A stretch of DNA of 44,108 nt, from positions 1-44,108 of the forward strand of contig JAPUET010000029.1 in assembly GCA_027492465.1 (NCBI GenBank). Direction: 5' to 3'. Source of the stretch: Candidatus Saccharimonadota bacterium (GTDB lineage Bacteria; Patescibacteriota; Saccharimonadia; Saccharimonadales; Saccharimonadaceae). How positions within the stretch are numbered: the stretch's first letter is position 1; each line of letters opens with the position of its first letter. Both the position numbers and the translations under genes were made by a program. A model generated the notes under the pieces. It was not told the origin of the DNA. It saw only the letters and a program-made list of their open reading frames with translations, and searched no databases. Below, piece by piece: positions 13,200 through 25,356 of this stretch.

Positions 13200-14851
13200 T
13201 AGTACGCCCCCTCCTTACTATAGTCATCAAGCTCACGCCCTACTATCACTCTACCGCAGCTATTAGTAATTGTTTTTGCAGCTTGCTCTGTACCGTTGTA
13301 TGTCAGTTTGCCGCTTGACACCGCTTGCACGCGTACATAATCGTCTGTACCTTGCTCAAATGCGGCACAAGCATCTGGCTGGCGCACATTTAGCGCACTC
13401 ACAACGCCGGCTTCTACGGTACCGCCACCATCAACCTGCAAATTAGCGACTGACGCTCTTGCTAATGTTACCGAACTACCGGTTTGGCTAGCTACGGTAA
13501 CAATGTCGTAGCTACCCTCAAGATCAAATTGCGAACTATTTACTGTCACCGTCAATTTAGCTTGGAGCTGATGAGTGGTGTATTGCACAGGTGTAGCGTT
13601 TTCCAATTCTACCGTATCGAGAGCTGGACCGTATATCCTTAAAACAGGTGTCGCCATATATTCCCACGGGCGCTCTCCACCAGCCGTGCTTTTTACTAAT
13701 TTTACGGTTGCAGATAGCCCGTCAGCAGCGATATCGAACTGAGGCTTTACGCCCGGAAGCGAATCCAGTTCATAGCGAGACTGCTCGGACACGATATATT
13801 CGATATGCCCGAAACCTTGGGTATTCTTATCTCCCACAACTTTTAGCAGTTTGATGCTAGAAAATTGCGTTGGTAGATTCACACGTGTTGTCTTGCGAGC
13901 TTGCGTAATGCGTGCTTGCTCTTCAAGGTTACCGTACACTCCTACGCCTACCCCGCTCATAAATGCCGCCAGGCCGACTACCACAATTACGATAACCGCC
14001 GTACTGGTACGCTTTGTCCACTGGCGGCGGAAGGTTGCGCTCGCTAGCACCGTACAAAGCGCTGCAAACAGCACGCCACTCGCCCCAAGCAGTATCATCA
14101 TGAGCATAAACCACCACGATTCGGTCAGCTTCCATTCTGCAATTGGTGAGTATTCCGACTCAAACCCAAAGCTTACACCGGTAACGGCCGCAGCCACACC
14201 AACAATGCTCCCTAAGGCTAGTAGGGCCAGTAGTACGCCCGCGCCATAAATCAATACTTCACGCAATACTCGTACTGTGCCGCTAGCTACCGGCTCGGCC
14301 TGCGCACCCAAACGTTTGATAGATTCTAGTGTCACCGGCTCGCCATTCATGCGCAGCTTTTCAGCCGCGGTGCGCGCTGGAGGAATAATCAACCACAAAA
14401 TCAGGTAAACGATGATAGCCACACCAAATGAGGCAAACAGCAGGACGATAAAAATTAAGCGCACCCATAGCGGGTCAATGCCGAAGAACCGGCCAAGCCC
14501 GGCCAGCACACCGCCCAGCACCGCGCTGTCAATATCGCGATATACTCGCCTGCCGGGCTCGTCGGCAGATTCCGTACCGACCACAATATCGCCCGCACCT
14601 TCGGGTAAAAATTCGCTCGGCTCGCCCAGCTGAGCACGTACCGCGGCGACATCATCAGCCGTAATCACACCGCCAGCCGGCACGCCGCGCTCGCCCAAAA
14701 GCTCGGTAATGCGAATTTCTATATCGCCGAGTAATTCGGGGTCATCGGCGTAGCGCTCGAGTGCCGCTATATACTTTTCTATCGCTTTTTTAGCCGTAAG
14801 TTCTATATCGTAGGCAGTTTTAGCGATGTGAATTCGGGTAATTTCTTTCAT
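13199..14851 (-). CDS. PspC-domain membrane protein with adhesin-like beta C-terminus
   Basis: The 550-aa protein has several modules. Residues 1-95 are a soluble helical region with IEIRITELLGERG and VITADDVAAVRAQLGEPSEF, typical of PspC-family N-termini. Residues 100-165 form the PspC domain (RRVYRDIDSAVLGGVLAGLG, then a YLILWLIIPP helix). Three further TM helices lie near 195-305, and a C-terminal extracytoplasmic region (about 325-550) is rich in beta strands with VELENATPVQY-like repeats, as in GIN/DUF2807 domains. PspC proteins sense envelope stress. The gene lies between a PadR repressor and an ABC exporter, suggesting a stress-sensing module. SD AAGGAG is 7 nt before the ATG. Confidence 0.85.
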   Translation of the reverse strand: MKEITRIHIAKTAYDIELTAKKAIEKYIAALERYADDPELLGDIEIRITELLGERGVPAGGVITADDVAAVRAQLGEPSEFLPEGAGDIVVGTESADEPGRRVYRDIDSAVLGGVLAGLGRFFGIDPLWVRLIFIVLLFASFGVAIIVYLILWLIIPPARTAAEKLRMNGEPVTLESIKRLGAQAEPVASGTVRVLREVLIYGAGVLLALLALGSIVGVAAAVTGVSFGFESEYSPIAEWKLTESWWFMLMMILLGASGVLFAALCTVLASATFRRQWTKRTSTAVIVIVVVGLAAFMSGVGVGVYGNLEEQARITQARKTTRVNLPTQFSSIKLLKVVGDKNTQGFGHIEYIVSEQSRYELDSLPGVKPQFDIAADGLSATVKLVKSTAGGERPWEYMATPVLRIYGPALDTVELENATPVQYTTHQLQAKLTVTVNSSQFDLEGSYDIVTVASQTGSSVTLARASVANLQVDGGGTVEAGVVSALNVRQPDACAAFEQGTDDYVRVQAVSSGKLTYNGTEQAAKTITNSCGRVIVGRELDDYSKEGAY

Positions 14852-22092: not shown

Positions 22093-22647
22093 CTAAATGG
22101 TAAGAATATCTTTCTCTTTAGTTTTAAAGGTGTCTTCAAGCATCGCCTGAGTATCTTGCATTAAGCGATCGAACTCTTTCTCAATGAGCTTTATATCATC
22201 TTCTGAGAGTTCTTTATTTTCTTTTTTCGCCTTAGCATCTTTTAGGCCATCCTGACGAACGTTACGTAAAGCAATTCGTGCCTCTTCTAGCTTTTCGCTT
22301 GCCTGCTTCACCAGTTGACGTCGACGCTCTTCGGTTAACGCCGGTACGGGTATGCGCACGACCCGCCCGTCATCGCTTGGGTTCAAGCCTAAGCCTTGGT
22401 CGTTACGAATCGCTGCCGAAACGGCCTGGATAGTGCTCGGGTCAAACGGAGTGATTTGCAGCAGCTGCGCCTCTGGTGCCGTGATATTTGCCACCTGATT
22501 TAGTGGCATAAGCGTACCATATGCCTCAACTTTTACACCATCAAGCATACCGGGGTGCGCGCGACCAGTCCGGATCTTTGCAAGCTCGTTTTCAAAATGC
22601 TCAACAGCCCCCTGCATTTTTAACTCATATTCGTCAGTATCAAACAT
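22093..22647 (-). CDS. frr: Ribosome recycling factor
   Basis: Splits post-termination ribosomes with EF-G. The 184-aa protein matches RRF throughout: FENELAKIRTGRAHPGML near 18-35, PLNQVANITAPEAQLLQITPFD, then the helical C-terminal bundle EERRRQLVKQASEKLEEARI. A ribosome site AAGGGA precedes the ATG (22647). In many bacteria pyrH lies directly upstream; here the upstream space instead holds a divergent pilin-like/EEP gene starting 90 nt away. frr heads the run frr-uppS-rseP-CPBP-proB-proS. Confidence 0.97.
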   Translation of the reverse strand: MFDTDEYELKMQGAVEHFENELAKIRTGRAHPGMLDGVKVEAYGTLMPLNQVANITAPEAQLLQITPFDPSTIQAVSAAIRNDQGLGLNPSDDGRVVRIPVPALTEERRRQLVKQASEKLEEARIALRNVRQDGLKDAKAKKENKELSEDDIKLIEKEFDRLMQDTQAMLEDTFKTKEKDILTI

Positions 22648-22737
22648 ATCATCCCTTACTATTACAGTTCTCTTCTTTAGTGTAGCAGAAAAACACTATA
22701 TAACTAAGGCCGGTAGCGTAGTATAATAAGCGTTAGT

Positions 22738-24060
22738 ATGACACGGGCTAACCTAGGGAAAAAGGGAGTCGTTGGGCTTTTGGCGCTCTTTAGTAGTGTG
22801 CTCATTGTCGTCGCCACACTTACTCCACCAGCTTTCGCAGCATCATGTGGAGACGTCGAAACAGCCATTATTGATTGTGGAAGCTCGGGTGATACGACGG
22901 GTAGTTCGGTAGTCGCTCTGCTCGCACTGAGCATTCAAATTCTTACTGGCGTTGTCGGCATCACAGCTATCGGTGCCCTTATATACGCCGGTATCCTCTA
23001 CTCCTCGGCAAGTGGCAACAGCTCACAAGTAGCTAAATCTAAGGAACTTATTAGCAATACCGTTATAGGCCTTGTGCTATTTGCCGGTATGGCCGTATTT
23101 CTTAACTGGTTAATACCTGGTGGACTATTTAGTGGAAATGCCAAGTTTGGGGCGGGCGGAAATGGTGAAAGCTCAAAATACGCAGATAGTGGCGGCATAA
23201 GAACTGGTCCAGGGAAAATCAACGACAAGGATAATAGCAACATTACCAGCACCAAGCCTGCTCAGGTAACCCTAGCCAGCTGGAATACCTATGTCAACAA
23301 CACTAATAATAAAGGTGTAGCGGCAAAATCAATTCTTAGTAGCGCAGATGTACTTGGCATGCAAGAGGTGCATAAGGCCGCTCAGCGTACAGACGTCAAA
23401 AAGATTGCTTCTAGCACTATCGGCGTATATCTTGCCCCTACCCCGTCTTCCGGCGACAAACATATGGCCAGCTACCCAATCGTTTACAACAAGTCTAAGA
23501 TAGACTTCATATCAGGAGGATTCCGCCGACTTGGCTCAACCCCCGGCCTTACCGACCGCTACGCCGTCTATGCCCTTTTGCGCCTCCGTGCCACTGGCCA
23601 GCAATTTTACTTTGTCAACACCCACTTACCTCCCGGCGTAGAATCGGGCGGTACACCAAAAAGCAACTCCAAAGCCACAGCCTATAAGAATCAAATGGCT
23701 TCACTAACAAGCTTCCTTAAAAATCTGCAAAATAGCAAGATGCCCGTGTTTGTCGTCGGGGACTTTAATGTCAATTACCGCTCTGACGCCTGCAAGACTA
23801 GCTGGTTCCCGTGTAGCGCTATGCACTCTGTCAATACAAAAAGCGCCTTCGAAATAACAAATCTAAGCGGCATCTCATCGTCCCAGGGTACCCATAACAA
23901 TAGCTCGCGACTTATCGATTATGTATTTGTCCATACCGATAGTCGCGTAGCAGTAAAATCCGTTGCCGTACTTGGGGGTAGCAGTAATGGCTTTAGGGGG
24001 TCAGACCACAAGCCTTCTCTGGCTCATATCACCATTACTTCCACACAAACTCAACATTAG
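22738..24060 (+). CDS. Pilin-like (TrbC/VirB2-type) membrane module fused to an EEP nuclease/phosphatase domain
   Basis: The 440-aa protein has two distinct parts. Residues 1-35 form a signal peptide ending TPPAFA. Residues 36-130 resemble TrbC/VirB2 pilins: a cysteine pair (C37, C47), a TM helix near 57-90, a small polar loop GNSSQVAKSKELISN, and a second TM helix ending NWLIPGG. After a glycine/serine linker, residues 178-436 form an endonuclease/exonuclease/phosphatase domain with all key elements: SWNT (N183), QE (209-210), NTHLP (H296), GDFN (341-344), RLIDY (D394) and SDH (422-424). The domain should face outside the cell. TATAAT at 22722-22727 is 10 nt before the ATG. Degrading external DNA or RNA for nucleotide uptake is a reasonable inference; a phospholipase or phosphatase role cannot be excluded. 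Confidence 0.85.
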   Translation: MTRANLGKKGVVGLLALFSSVLIVVATLTPPAFAASCGDVETAIIDCGSSGDTTGSSVVALLALSIQILTGVVGITAIGALIYAGILYSSASGNSSQVAKSKELISNTVIGLVLFAGMAVFLNWLIPGGLFSGNAKFGAGGNGESSKYADSGGIRTGPGKINDKDNSNITSTKPAQVTLASWNTYVNNTNNKGVAAKSILSSADVLGMQEVHKAAQRTDVKKIASSTIGVYLAPTPSSGDKHMASYPIVYNKSKIDFISGGFRRLGSTPGLTDRYAVYALLRLRATGQQFYFVNTHLPPGVESGGTPKSNSKATAYKNQMASLTSFLKNLQNSKMPVFVVGDFNVNYRSDACKTSWFPCSAMHSVNTKSAFEITNLSGISSSQGTHNNSSRLIDYVFVHTDSRVAVKSVAVLGGSSNGFRGSDHKPSLAHITITSTQTQH

Positions 24061-24136: not shown

Positions 24137-24700
24137 ATGCAACCAGACATCACTCTGTCACCTAAAAAGCCCGTGCTCAAGCGAAATCTTCTTATTGCAG
24201 GAGTTGTCCTCATCATCATAGGTATCGGTCTGAATTTATATCAGCATCAGCCATCGAATGGTCCAACCTGCTTTACCACCAGTGACTACATCGACTTTTA
24301 TCATAGCGCGCCCGGTGACGCCGTTTTGGGGCCCGGCACTACATTTTTTACCCACTCCTATCCGTTCGTACCCGCCACGACAACGCTCGATACCACTGAC
24401 CCCACCATATCGGCATCGCAAGATAGTACTGAAATTGCTGCATTTTATAAAGAGCATACTACTAGGGCAATGGTGTTTACAATAGAGTCCGCCTATCTAA
24501 TCGGCCCCAATGCCGACGGATCTATCGCTGAAAAGCGTACTGAACTACTAAAAAAACTCCTTACCGATGCCGGTATCCCCGCCGAGCTCATCACCACCAA
24601 GACCCATGCATACGAGATTGACGAGGACGGCACAAGCGCCTACGATGATATTGATAATGCCACTATCACGCTGAGTTCTGCTGAAACCTGCCACGAATAG
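24137..24700 (+). CDS. Membrane-anchored extracytoplasmic protein, weakly OmpA-domain-like
   Basis: The 187-aa protein has a short basic start, one TM helix near residues 19-36 (LLIAGVVLIIIGIGLNLY) and an outside domain. It is threonine/aspartate-rich with two cysteines (C45, C185). The C-terminal part AEKRTELLKKLLTDAGIPAE followed by a strand-like DNATITLS loosely recalls the RAxxVxxxLxxxGI helix of OmpA-type peptidoglycan-binding domains, but the key R and D residues are not clear. An AGAGAGGA ribosome site lies about 13 nt before the ATG. It follows the pilin-like/EEP gene by 76 nt on the same strand and ends at a strong terminator, so the two probably form one small unit. Confidence 0.7.
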   Translation: MQPDITLSPKKPVLKRNLLIAGVVLIIIGIGLNLYQHQPSNGPTCFTTSDYIDFYHSAPGDAVLGPGTTFFTHSYPFVPATTTLDTTDPTISASQDSTEIAAFYKEHTTRAMVFTIESAYLIGPNADGSIAEKRTELLKKLLTDAGIPAELITTKTHAYEIDEDGTSAYDDIDNATITLSSAETCHE

Positions 24701-24759: not shown

Positions 24760-25356
24760 TTATTCAGTAACACCCAGCTCAATACGCTTGAACTGGCTAA
24801 TGCGGATGTTCTCGCCAGAAAGGGCGATCTGCTCTTTAATGCGCTCACCGACTGTCTTAGAATCATCAAGCACAAATGTCTGCTCAGATAGCACTTGCTC
24901 GGCAAAATGCTTTTTTAGCTGGCCTTCTACAATTTGCTCACGCATGTTTTCAGGTTTGCTTTTTAGGCCTTCGCTCTCAAGTAATTCCTGCTTTTTCGCC
25001 TCCAATGCTTCAGCCGGAATGTCTTCCATCGTGCTGTAGCTTGGGTTCATCGCAGCGATCTGCATCGCAATTTGATGAGCAAATTCCTTAAATTCCGGAA
25101 GGCGCGCTACGAAATCCGTTTCGCAGTTTACTTCTACTACTACGCCGATACGACCAGAGTGTACATAGCTCTCTACTAAGCCTTCGCGAGTTTCGCGGTC
25201 GCCTTTTTTTTCAGCGCGAGTTAGTCCCTTTTTGCGCATTGCTTCGAGCGCCTTGTCAAAGTTACCGTCCGCTTCAACAAGTGCGGTCTTCGCGTCGGTG
25301 AGGCCAACACCAGTTAGTTCTTTTAATTTCTTAATGTCTTCGATAGTAACCGCCAC
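24760..25356 (-). CDS. tsf: Elongation factor Ts (short form)
   Basis: Nucleotide exchange factor for EF-Tu. The 198-aa protein has the N-terminal UBA-like domain IKKLKELTGVGLTDAKTALV, the conserved KKGLTRAEKKGDRETREGLV and the core ending GVVVEVNCETDFVAR. Like the Thermus protein it keeps one core subdomain and is much shorter than the 283-aa E. coli EF-Ts. The start codon is GTG (25356-25354). An AAAGGAGG SD lies inside the last rpsB codons, and the GTG directly follows the rpsB stop. The pair is one operon ending at the hairpin at 24710-24740. Confidence 0.96.
   Translation of the reverse strand: MAVTIEDIKKLKELTGVGLTDAKTALVEADGNFDKALEAMRKKGLTRAEKKGDRETREGLVESYVHSGRIGVVVEVNCETDFVARLPEFKEFAHQIAMQIAAMNPSYSTMEDIPAEALEAKKQELLESEGLKSKPENMREQIVEGQLKKHFAEQVLSEQTFVLDDSKTVGERIKEQIALSGENIRISQFKRIELGVTE

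Follow-up and report, generated by a model that had tools for sequence, protein, structure and literature searches.

A gene of the Candidatus Saccharimonadota genome GCA_027492465.1, from a tiny bacterium of parasitic type, encodes in one frame a type IV secretion system (T4SS) pilin followed by an EEP phosphoesterase. Together with the gene downstream it forms a two-gene cassette that occupies the same chromosomal place in seven relatives, where a tyrosine phosphatase takes the position of the EEP enzyme. The domains, the catalytic residues, the two-gene cassette, its fixed locus, the swap of the enzyme and the pilin halves that in several cases follow the arrays of their own genomes or genera were all obtained by computation. 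Judging from the sequences, we see about an even chance that the product is a phosphoesterase which Sec exports and a pilin anchors at the surface, in association with the T4SS and stationed with a transmembrane (TM) partner, its enzyme being interchangeable. The window, i.e. the whole stretch of DNA analysed, comprises 44,108 nucleotides (contig JAPUET010000029.1, C29 below) and contains the following features.

22093..22647, minus strand: frr, conserved left flank of the cassette, divergent (gene neighbourhood)
22738..24060, plus strand: pilin-EEP fusion protein, 440 aa (frame, Pfam, catalytic residues, models, profile scores)
22738..22842, plus strand: signal peptide region, residues 1-35, with model helix 8-28 (hydropathy, model)
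22843..23136, plus strand: T4SS 'PGG' pilin module, residues 36-133, with Cys37, Cys47, helices 57-90 and 95-125 and PGG 127-129 (Pfam, conservation, hydropathy, model)
23137..23253, plus strand: disordered Gly/Asn/Ser-rich linker, residues 134-172 (pLDDT <50 for 134-171; composition)
23254..24048, plus strand: EEP phosphoesterase domain, residues 173-437 (Pfam, alignment, model, fold search)
24137..24700, plus strand: partner protein, 187 aa, cytosolic tail, one TM and extracellular domain (profiles, alignment, neighbourhood)
24760..25356, minus strand: tsf, conserved right flank of the cassette (gene neighbourhood)

A pilin and a phosphoesterase in a single frame

The initial annotation had proposed that a pilin and an EEP domain are fused in one 440-aa frame, and this proposal stands. 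The frame (22738-24060, plus strand) is uninterrupted and lies inside the 44-kb contig, both domains were found by Pfam, and the G+C content shows no step at the joint between them. The full-length AlphaFold2 model starts with a signal helix, continues with a two-helix hairpin predicted with confidence and a linker without order (134-171), and closes with the EEP domain. In this model the hairpin was good and the first EEP strand weaker, the alignment having misplaced the start of the EEP fragments, and the EEP domain was modelled alone from a separate alignment. The putative signal cleavage site would be near AFA-A/S. A TATAAT motif is located 10 nt ahead of the ATG of the fusion gene (region 22648-22737), from which its mRNA may be leaderless. 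A phage or plasmid origin was rejected, with no phage match and a single plasmid match that involved only the EEP half at 25% identity. PADLOC, a search for anti-phage defence, gave no match for the fusion protein.

VirB2-like pilins of Patescibacteria (PF18895), in arrays adjoining virB4/virB6, have been published (PMC12102498) and proved essential in Ca. Southlakia epibionticum (PMC10633639). PF18895 (T4SS_pilin) matched residues 67-125 of the fusion with 26.3 bits in the whole protein, just below the cut-off of 26.6, and exceeded it with the N-terminal part alone (28.8 bits) and in the genome search (30.8 bits). TrbC (PF04956), the family assigned initially, had to be replaced by this one, as it gave no match to the fusion protein at E<=1. 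A profile of 104 array pilins, with no fusions in it, scored 109.9 bits against the protein (E 3.7e-33), while the best of 1000 block-wise shuffles, which kept the composition of each block, reached only 17.5 bits; the possibility that the pilin half consists of generic TM helices was therefore discarded. Cys37, Cys47, the IG of helix 2 and the P-x-G at its end are invariant in 18 fused and stand-alone pilins. Like the VirB2-like pilins of Patescibacteria, the fusion has a signal peptide, the Cys pair, two hydrophobic helices separated by a short polar loop (hydropathy; model helices 8-28, 57-90 and 95-125) and the PGG end, and the array pilin of its own genome is 48% identical over 86 aa. However, those pilins are stand-alone or N-terminally extended and found in arrays, whereas the fusion is no small subunit encoded with a T4SS but an orphan of 440 aa on contig C29 with a C-terminal enzyme. 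A second pilin candidate in the window (13949-14113, minus strand) scored 13.8 bits inside a 550-aa multi-TM protein and was taken as a chance match.

In the other half, PF03372 (EEP) matched residues 180-424 with 46.6 bits (cut-off 24.5). The catalytic residues N183, E210, H296, D342, N344, D394, D423 and H424 are all present, and invariant across 17 Saccharibacterial EEPs; N183, E210, H296, D394, D423 and H424 had been correctly picked in the initial annotation, while its D341 and N343 are actually D342 and N344. The EEP-alone AlphaFold2 model (pLDDT 81, pTM 0.87) compares with solved EEPs at Z about 23, the closest being the Bacteroides EEPs 3mpr and 3g6s (Z 23.7 and 23.1; 22-24% identity in the structural alignment). 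The Bacteroides EEPs, TDP2, neutral sphingomyelinase and mannosyl-6-phosphatase (4c1r) all fall within ~1.5 Z units and nocturnin is slightly lower. With the superfamily (3mpr, 3g6s, 4c1r, nocturnin, TDP2) our enzyme shares the fold and all catalytic residues, and it differs from the solved members, to which it is 22-24% identical, in being joined to a pilin. Because nuclease, TDP2, nocturnin, sphingomyelinase and mannosyl-6-phosphatase folds match nearly equally, no substrate can be singled out from the fold. The equivalogs of exonuclease III (TIGR00633, 28.4 bits, cut-off 99.05) and bacterial sphingomyelinase (TIGR03395, 17.8 bits, cut-off 248.2) stayed under their cut-offs, and the viral fold library returned generic EEPs only. 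Nucleic-acid harvesting by the EEP half is possible. It fits a genome without SAICAR synthase and with a ComEC-type DNA importer, a gene content that makes nucleotide salvage plausible. Against harvesting, what the relatives carry in this position is a tyrosine phosphatase and not a nucleic-acid harvester.

A two-gene cassette between frr and tsf

Seven pilin-phosphatase proteins share the layout of the fusion, with an MptpB-type tyrosine phosphatase (PTP, PF13350) replacing the EEP. Altogether there are eight cassettes of fusion plus partner, pilin-EEP here and pilin-PTP in the seven relatives, with one chromosomal position in common. Where the flank is long enough the order is frr, often recF, fusion, partner, tsf and rpsB, with the pair divergent from its flanks. 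The sister cassettes have the same pilin module, the same partner and the same locus, but the PTP that occupies the place of the EEP is unrelated to it in fold and chemistry. Uniqueness of the fusion was thus not supported, since the fused enzyme varies between genomes.

The gene at 24137-24700, suspected from the start to be a partner, turned out to belong to a family that is kept downstream of the seven other pilin-enzyme fusions and is absent elsewhere in the taxonomic family. Its close relatives occur only directly downstream of pilin-PTP fusions, and a profile of the partner family had matches at E<1e-50 in exactly 8 of the 237 genomes of the taxonomic family, always downstream of a fusion, and the match that came after these was at 1e-13. 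The two genes lie within ~10 bp of each other or overlap in all seven PTP cassettes (7/7), and are separated by 76 bp in the pilin-EEP one. In the predicted extracellular domain of the partner C45 and C185 are invariant. The protein has no family match in Pfam. Searched against PDB profiles, its extracellular half gave weak matches, nearly all OmpA-like and including the T4SS protein DotK (E 0.013 to 1.2), and we suspect from this a divergent OmpA-like fold. To the OmpA-like wall-binding domains of OprF, MotY, DotK and Pal the similarity is weak and at profile level (best E 0.013), any kinship being putative, and the partner differs from them in lacking a Pfam match and in placing the domain behind an N-terminal TM. 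A role as cargo-specific immunity protein is unlikely because the same partner family accompanies both EEP and PTP.

Within the genus of the pilin-EEP genome the frr-tsf junction varies, being empty in three genomes and carrying in five a conserved gene of ~235 aa (L111:768-1475, L112:2078-2785 and L116:755-1459 in other species of the genus). In one more genome (G124, L113:133-1383) it holds P0002, an EEP protein of 416 aa anchored by a single TM, in the same orientation and without pilin or partner. The N-terminal tail and TM of P0002 resemble the partner in layout. In the EEP tree, which has long branches, the branching speaks neither for nor against an origin of the EEP half from T4SS-operon EEPs or a common ancestry with P0002. 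In one of the PTP cassette genomes (G370, L170:3284-4138) rpmE- and prfA-like fragments lie between partner and tsf, with further matches to both on the contig, which looks like the scar of a local duplication. The other fusions checked for synteny are located elsewhere than frr-tsf and have no partner.

The pilin halves follow the arrays of their own genomes or genera in several cases

In a tree of 73 pilins the fusions require at least six changes, and in a focused tree a single fused clade was rejected by the AU test, both for the seven PTP fusions (p 4e-7) and with pilin-EEP added (4.7e-9). The focused tree places the fused pilins of G370 (99/97), G378 (93/87) and JAUIBD (83/83) with arrays of their own genome or genus and that of G216 in a 100/99 group with genus g6, while those of HM28 and UBA2951/2952 are not paired with their own arrays. 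The pilin of the pilin-EEP fusion groups there with arrays of genus g1 (95/88), a support that comes from the focused tree only, its position in the 73-row tree not being resolved; by score to this pilin, the array pilin of its own genome ranks 11th of 109. The fused pilin of G370 shows 83% identity to the array pilin of that genome and no more than 54% to other fusions, and the PTP halves are 38-58% alike, one sister pair excepted. That several pilin halves branch with their own arrays in spite of a shared partner and locus suggests that in several cases this half has been kept matched to the T4SS of the cell. Since partner and locus are shared, we infer that the pilin half was more probably converted repeatedly by an array pilin than fused independently at one place.

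Other fusions and other settings of the enzymes

Pilin relatives were found in 210 of the 393 class genomes. The EEP half was detected in 9 of 386 (own genome included) and the combination of both in this genome alone. The nearest pilin relatives led to 80 loci in named genomes, whose record labels read Saccharibacteria, Saccharimonadia, Patescibacteria or gave no group name, and the class was accordingly taken as Saccharimonadia. The domains found C-terminal to the same kind of pilin are PF13350, an alpha/beta hydrolase, a C39-like peptidase, a phosphodiester glycosidase (NAGPA), Big_2 with a CHAP-like tail and SLH. PGG-pilin fusions with esterase-like, C39-like, NAGPA, CHAP-like and SLH domains lie away from frr-tsf (L062, L068, L071, L072, L073, L075, L028 and L136), two of them adjacent in L136. 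In a focused count over the contig set, scanned with a narrow profile of this pilin type by which fused pilins of other types may be missed, C-terminal fusion was seen in none of 65 array PGG pilins and in 7 of 11 pilins at orphan places; the latter count leaves out contig-edge pilins that are not fused, and the former one apparent array fusion that is a run of N. These seven C-fused pilins were found alone or near a contig end.

A reverse layout, with a secreted, repeat-like N-terminal domain of ~260 aa followed by a PGG pilin, was found at L217:4161-5267 (with no other pilin nearby) and L076:2149-3366. In another class of Patescibacteria a 364-aa frame has four consecutive pilin hairpins (G539, L130:2787-3881), and frames of 2900-3400 aa containing a pilin-like hairpin occur in other classes of the phylum (G634, G512, G723 and G525).

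The genome of the pilin-EEP fusion (about 1.0 Mb, 93% complete) has its T4SS locus on contig C9, distant from the fusion gene on C29. It comprises a tandem pilin array, two VirB6-like genes, a VirB4-like gene and a large VanY-ended protein, the VirB6 and VirB4 names being our probable reading of sequences and gene order. EEP domains recur in proteins of 1200-1600 aa right after virB4 in several T4SS operons, some with an M23 peptidase. These large proteins (L120:11040-15488, L121:13452-18278, L122:677-4348, L123:457-4986 and L126:2941-6081) have an exchangeable C-terminal hydrolase, which may be EEP (one to three copies), M23 peptidase or, as in the own genome, VanY. A secreted 930-aa protein of family f6 (L056:325-3117, G146:C22) combines PTP (PF13350), EEP, Big_7 and an LPXTG-type anchor, so that both enzymes of the cassettes are linked here with one another and with the surface of the cell. 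A further EEP gene in the pilin-EEP genome (L002, G000:C37:146-835) has one in-frame TAG and lies near a contig end.

A possible enzyme-bearing pilin at the cell surface

The occurrence of the same enzymes on single-TM, LPXTG and T4SS-operon proteins agrees with the surface placement proposed in the initial annotation, and for the fusion itself a surface topology would follow by analogy with the known arrangement of VirB2 and F-pilin. Sec would export the protein, the hairpin would insert in the membrane and the C-terminal enzyme would remain outside. The pilin half would then join the pilin system of the cell's own T4SS, probably as a minor subunit or at the base, because a pilus would hardly accommodate an enzyme of 260 aa on each of its subunits. 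In this manner the enzyme could be held at the contact with the host cell and act there on host-derived phosphoesters. The partner, perhaps OmpA-like and wall-binding, may belong to this device, where its probable task is to station or stabilise the fusion. The enzyme half would be the interchangeable tool, EEP here and MptpB-type PTP at the same locus in the seven relatives.

The pilin might be just an anchor, given that the same enzymes are found with plain anchors. The protein would then be an ordinary surface-tethered EEP nuclease or phosphatase for scavenging, with no tie to the T4SS. We rate this as possible, though we lean away from it. P0002, at the same locus and in the same genus, has its EEP on a single TM without pilin or partner, the 930-aa protein of another family carries PTP and EEP on an LPXTG-type anchor, the fusion gene is far from the T4SS locus, and the lack of SAICAR synthase and presence of ComEC suit a scavenger. 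But a plain anchor needs no complete pilin signature (two Cys, PGG and 110 bits to array pilins), nor does it need to track the array pilin of its genome or to keep a conserved partner.

If the pilin half was instead a ticket for export through the T4SS, VirB4 would extract the fusion as it does a pilin and the enzyme would be delivered onto or into the host as an effector. To our knowledge, no effector has been shown in this phylum, and the same enzymes on wall or TM anchors point to retention at the surface. We find this reading unlikely, even with varied C-terminal enzymes on one pilin module, a pilin half matched to the own T4SS and an essential T4SS for which known substrates are lacking (PMC10633639, PMC11665869). 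Finally, that pilin-EEP is the sole case among 386 class genomes would be expected of a chimeric gene or of a misassembly that put an array pilin in front of an EEP gene. Such an artefact, frameshift included, we consider extremely improbable, with an uninterrupted frame in the contig interior and with layout, locus, orientation and partner recurring in seven other genomes.

Implications for the T4SS of Saccharibacteria

The T4SS is essential for the epibiotic growth of Ca. Southlakia epibionticum, the one Saccharibacterium tested (PMC10633639). Its role in Saccharibacteria has been described as 'completely unknown', effector delivery being only speculation (PMC10633639, PMC11665869). Term searches of the texts of PMC12102498 and PMC10633639 revealed no pilin-enzyme fusion, and we found no published description of one in the literature searched, which excluded preprints and most subscription journals. 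Returning to the pilin-anchored surface enzyme, the set of pilin-enzyme and partner suggests a tool at the surface that can be interchanged and is directed at host cells. More tentatively, and with less than even confidence, the T4SS pilin could be regarded as a carrier for exchangeable enzymes, encoded in a fixed-locus cassette matched to the own T4SS, with the pilus displaying or delivering them at host contact. If this is true, the essential T4SS of the phylum would have in them a first candidate for its cargo. These half-pilin, half-enzyme proteins and their conserved partner provide named genes for predictions on what the T4SS displays or delivers, and with them a way into how a very large and mostly uncultured group of bacteria exploits its hosts.
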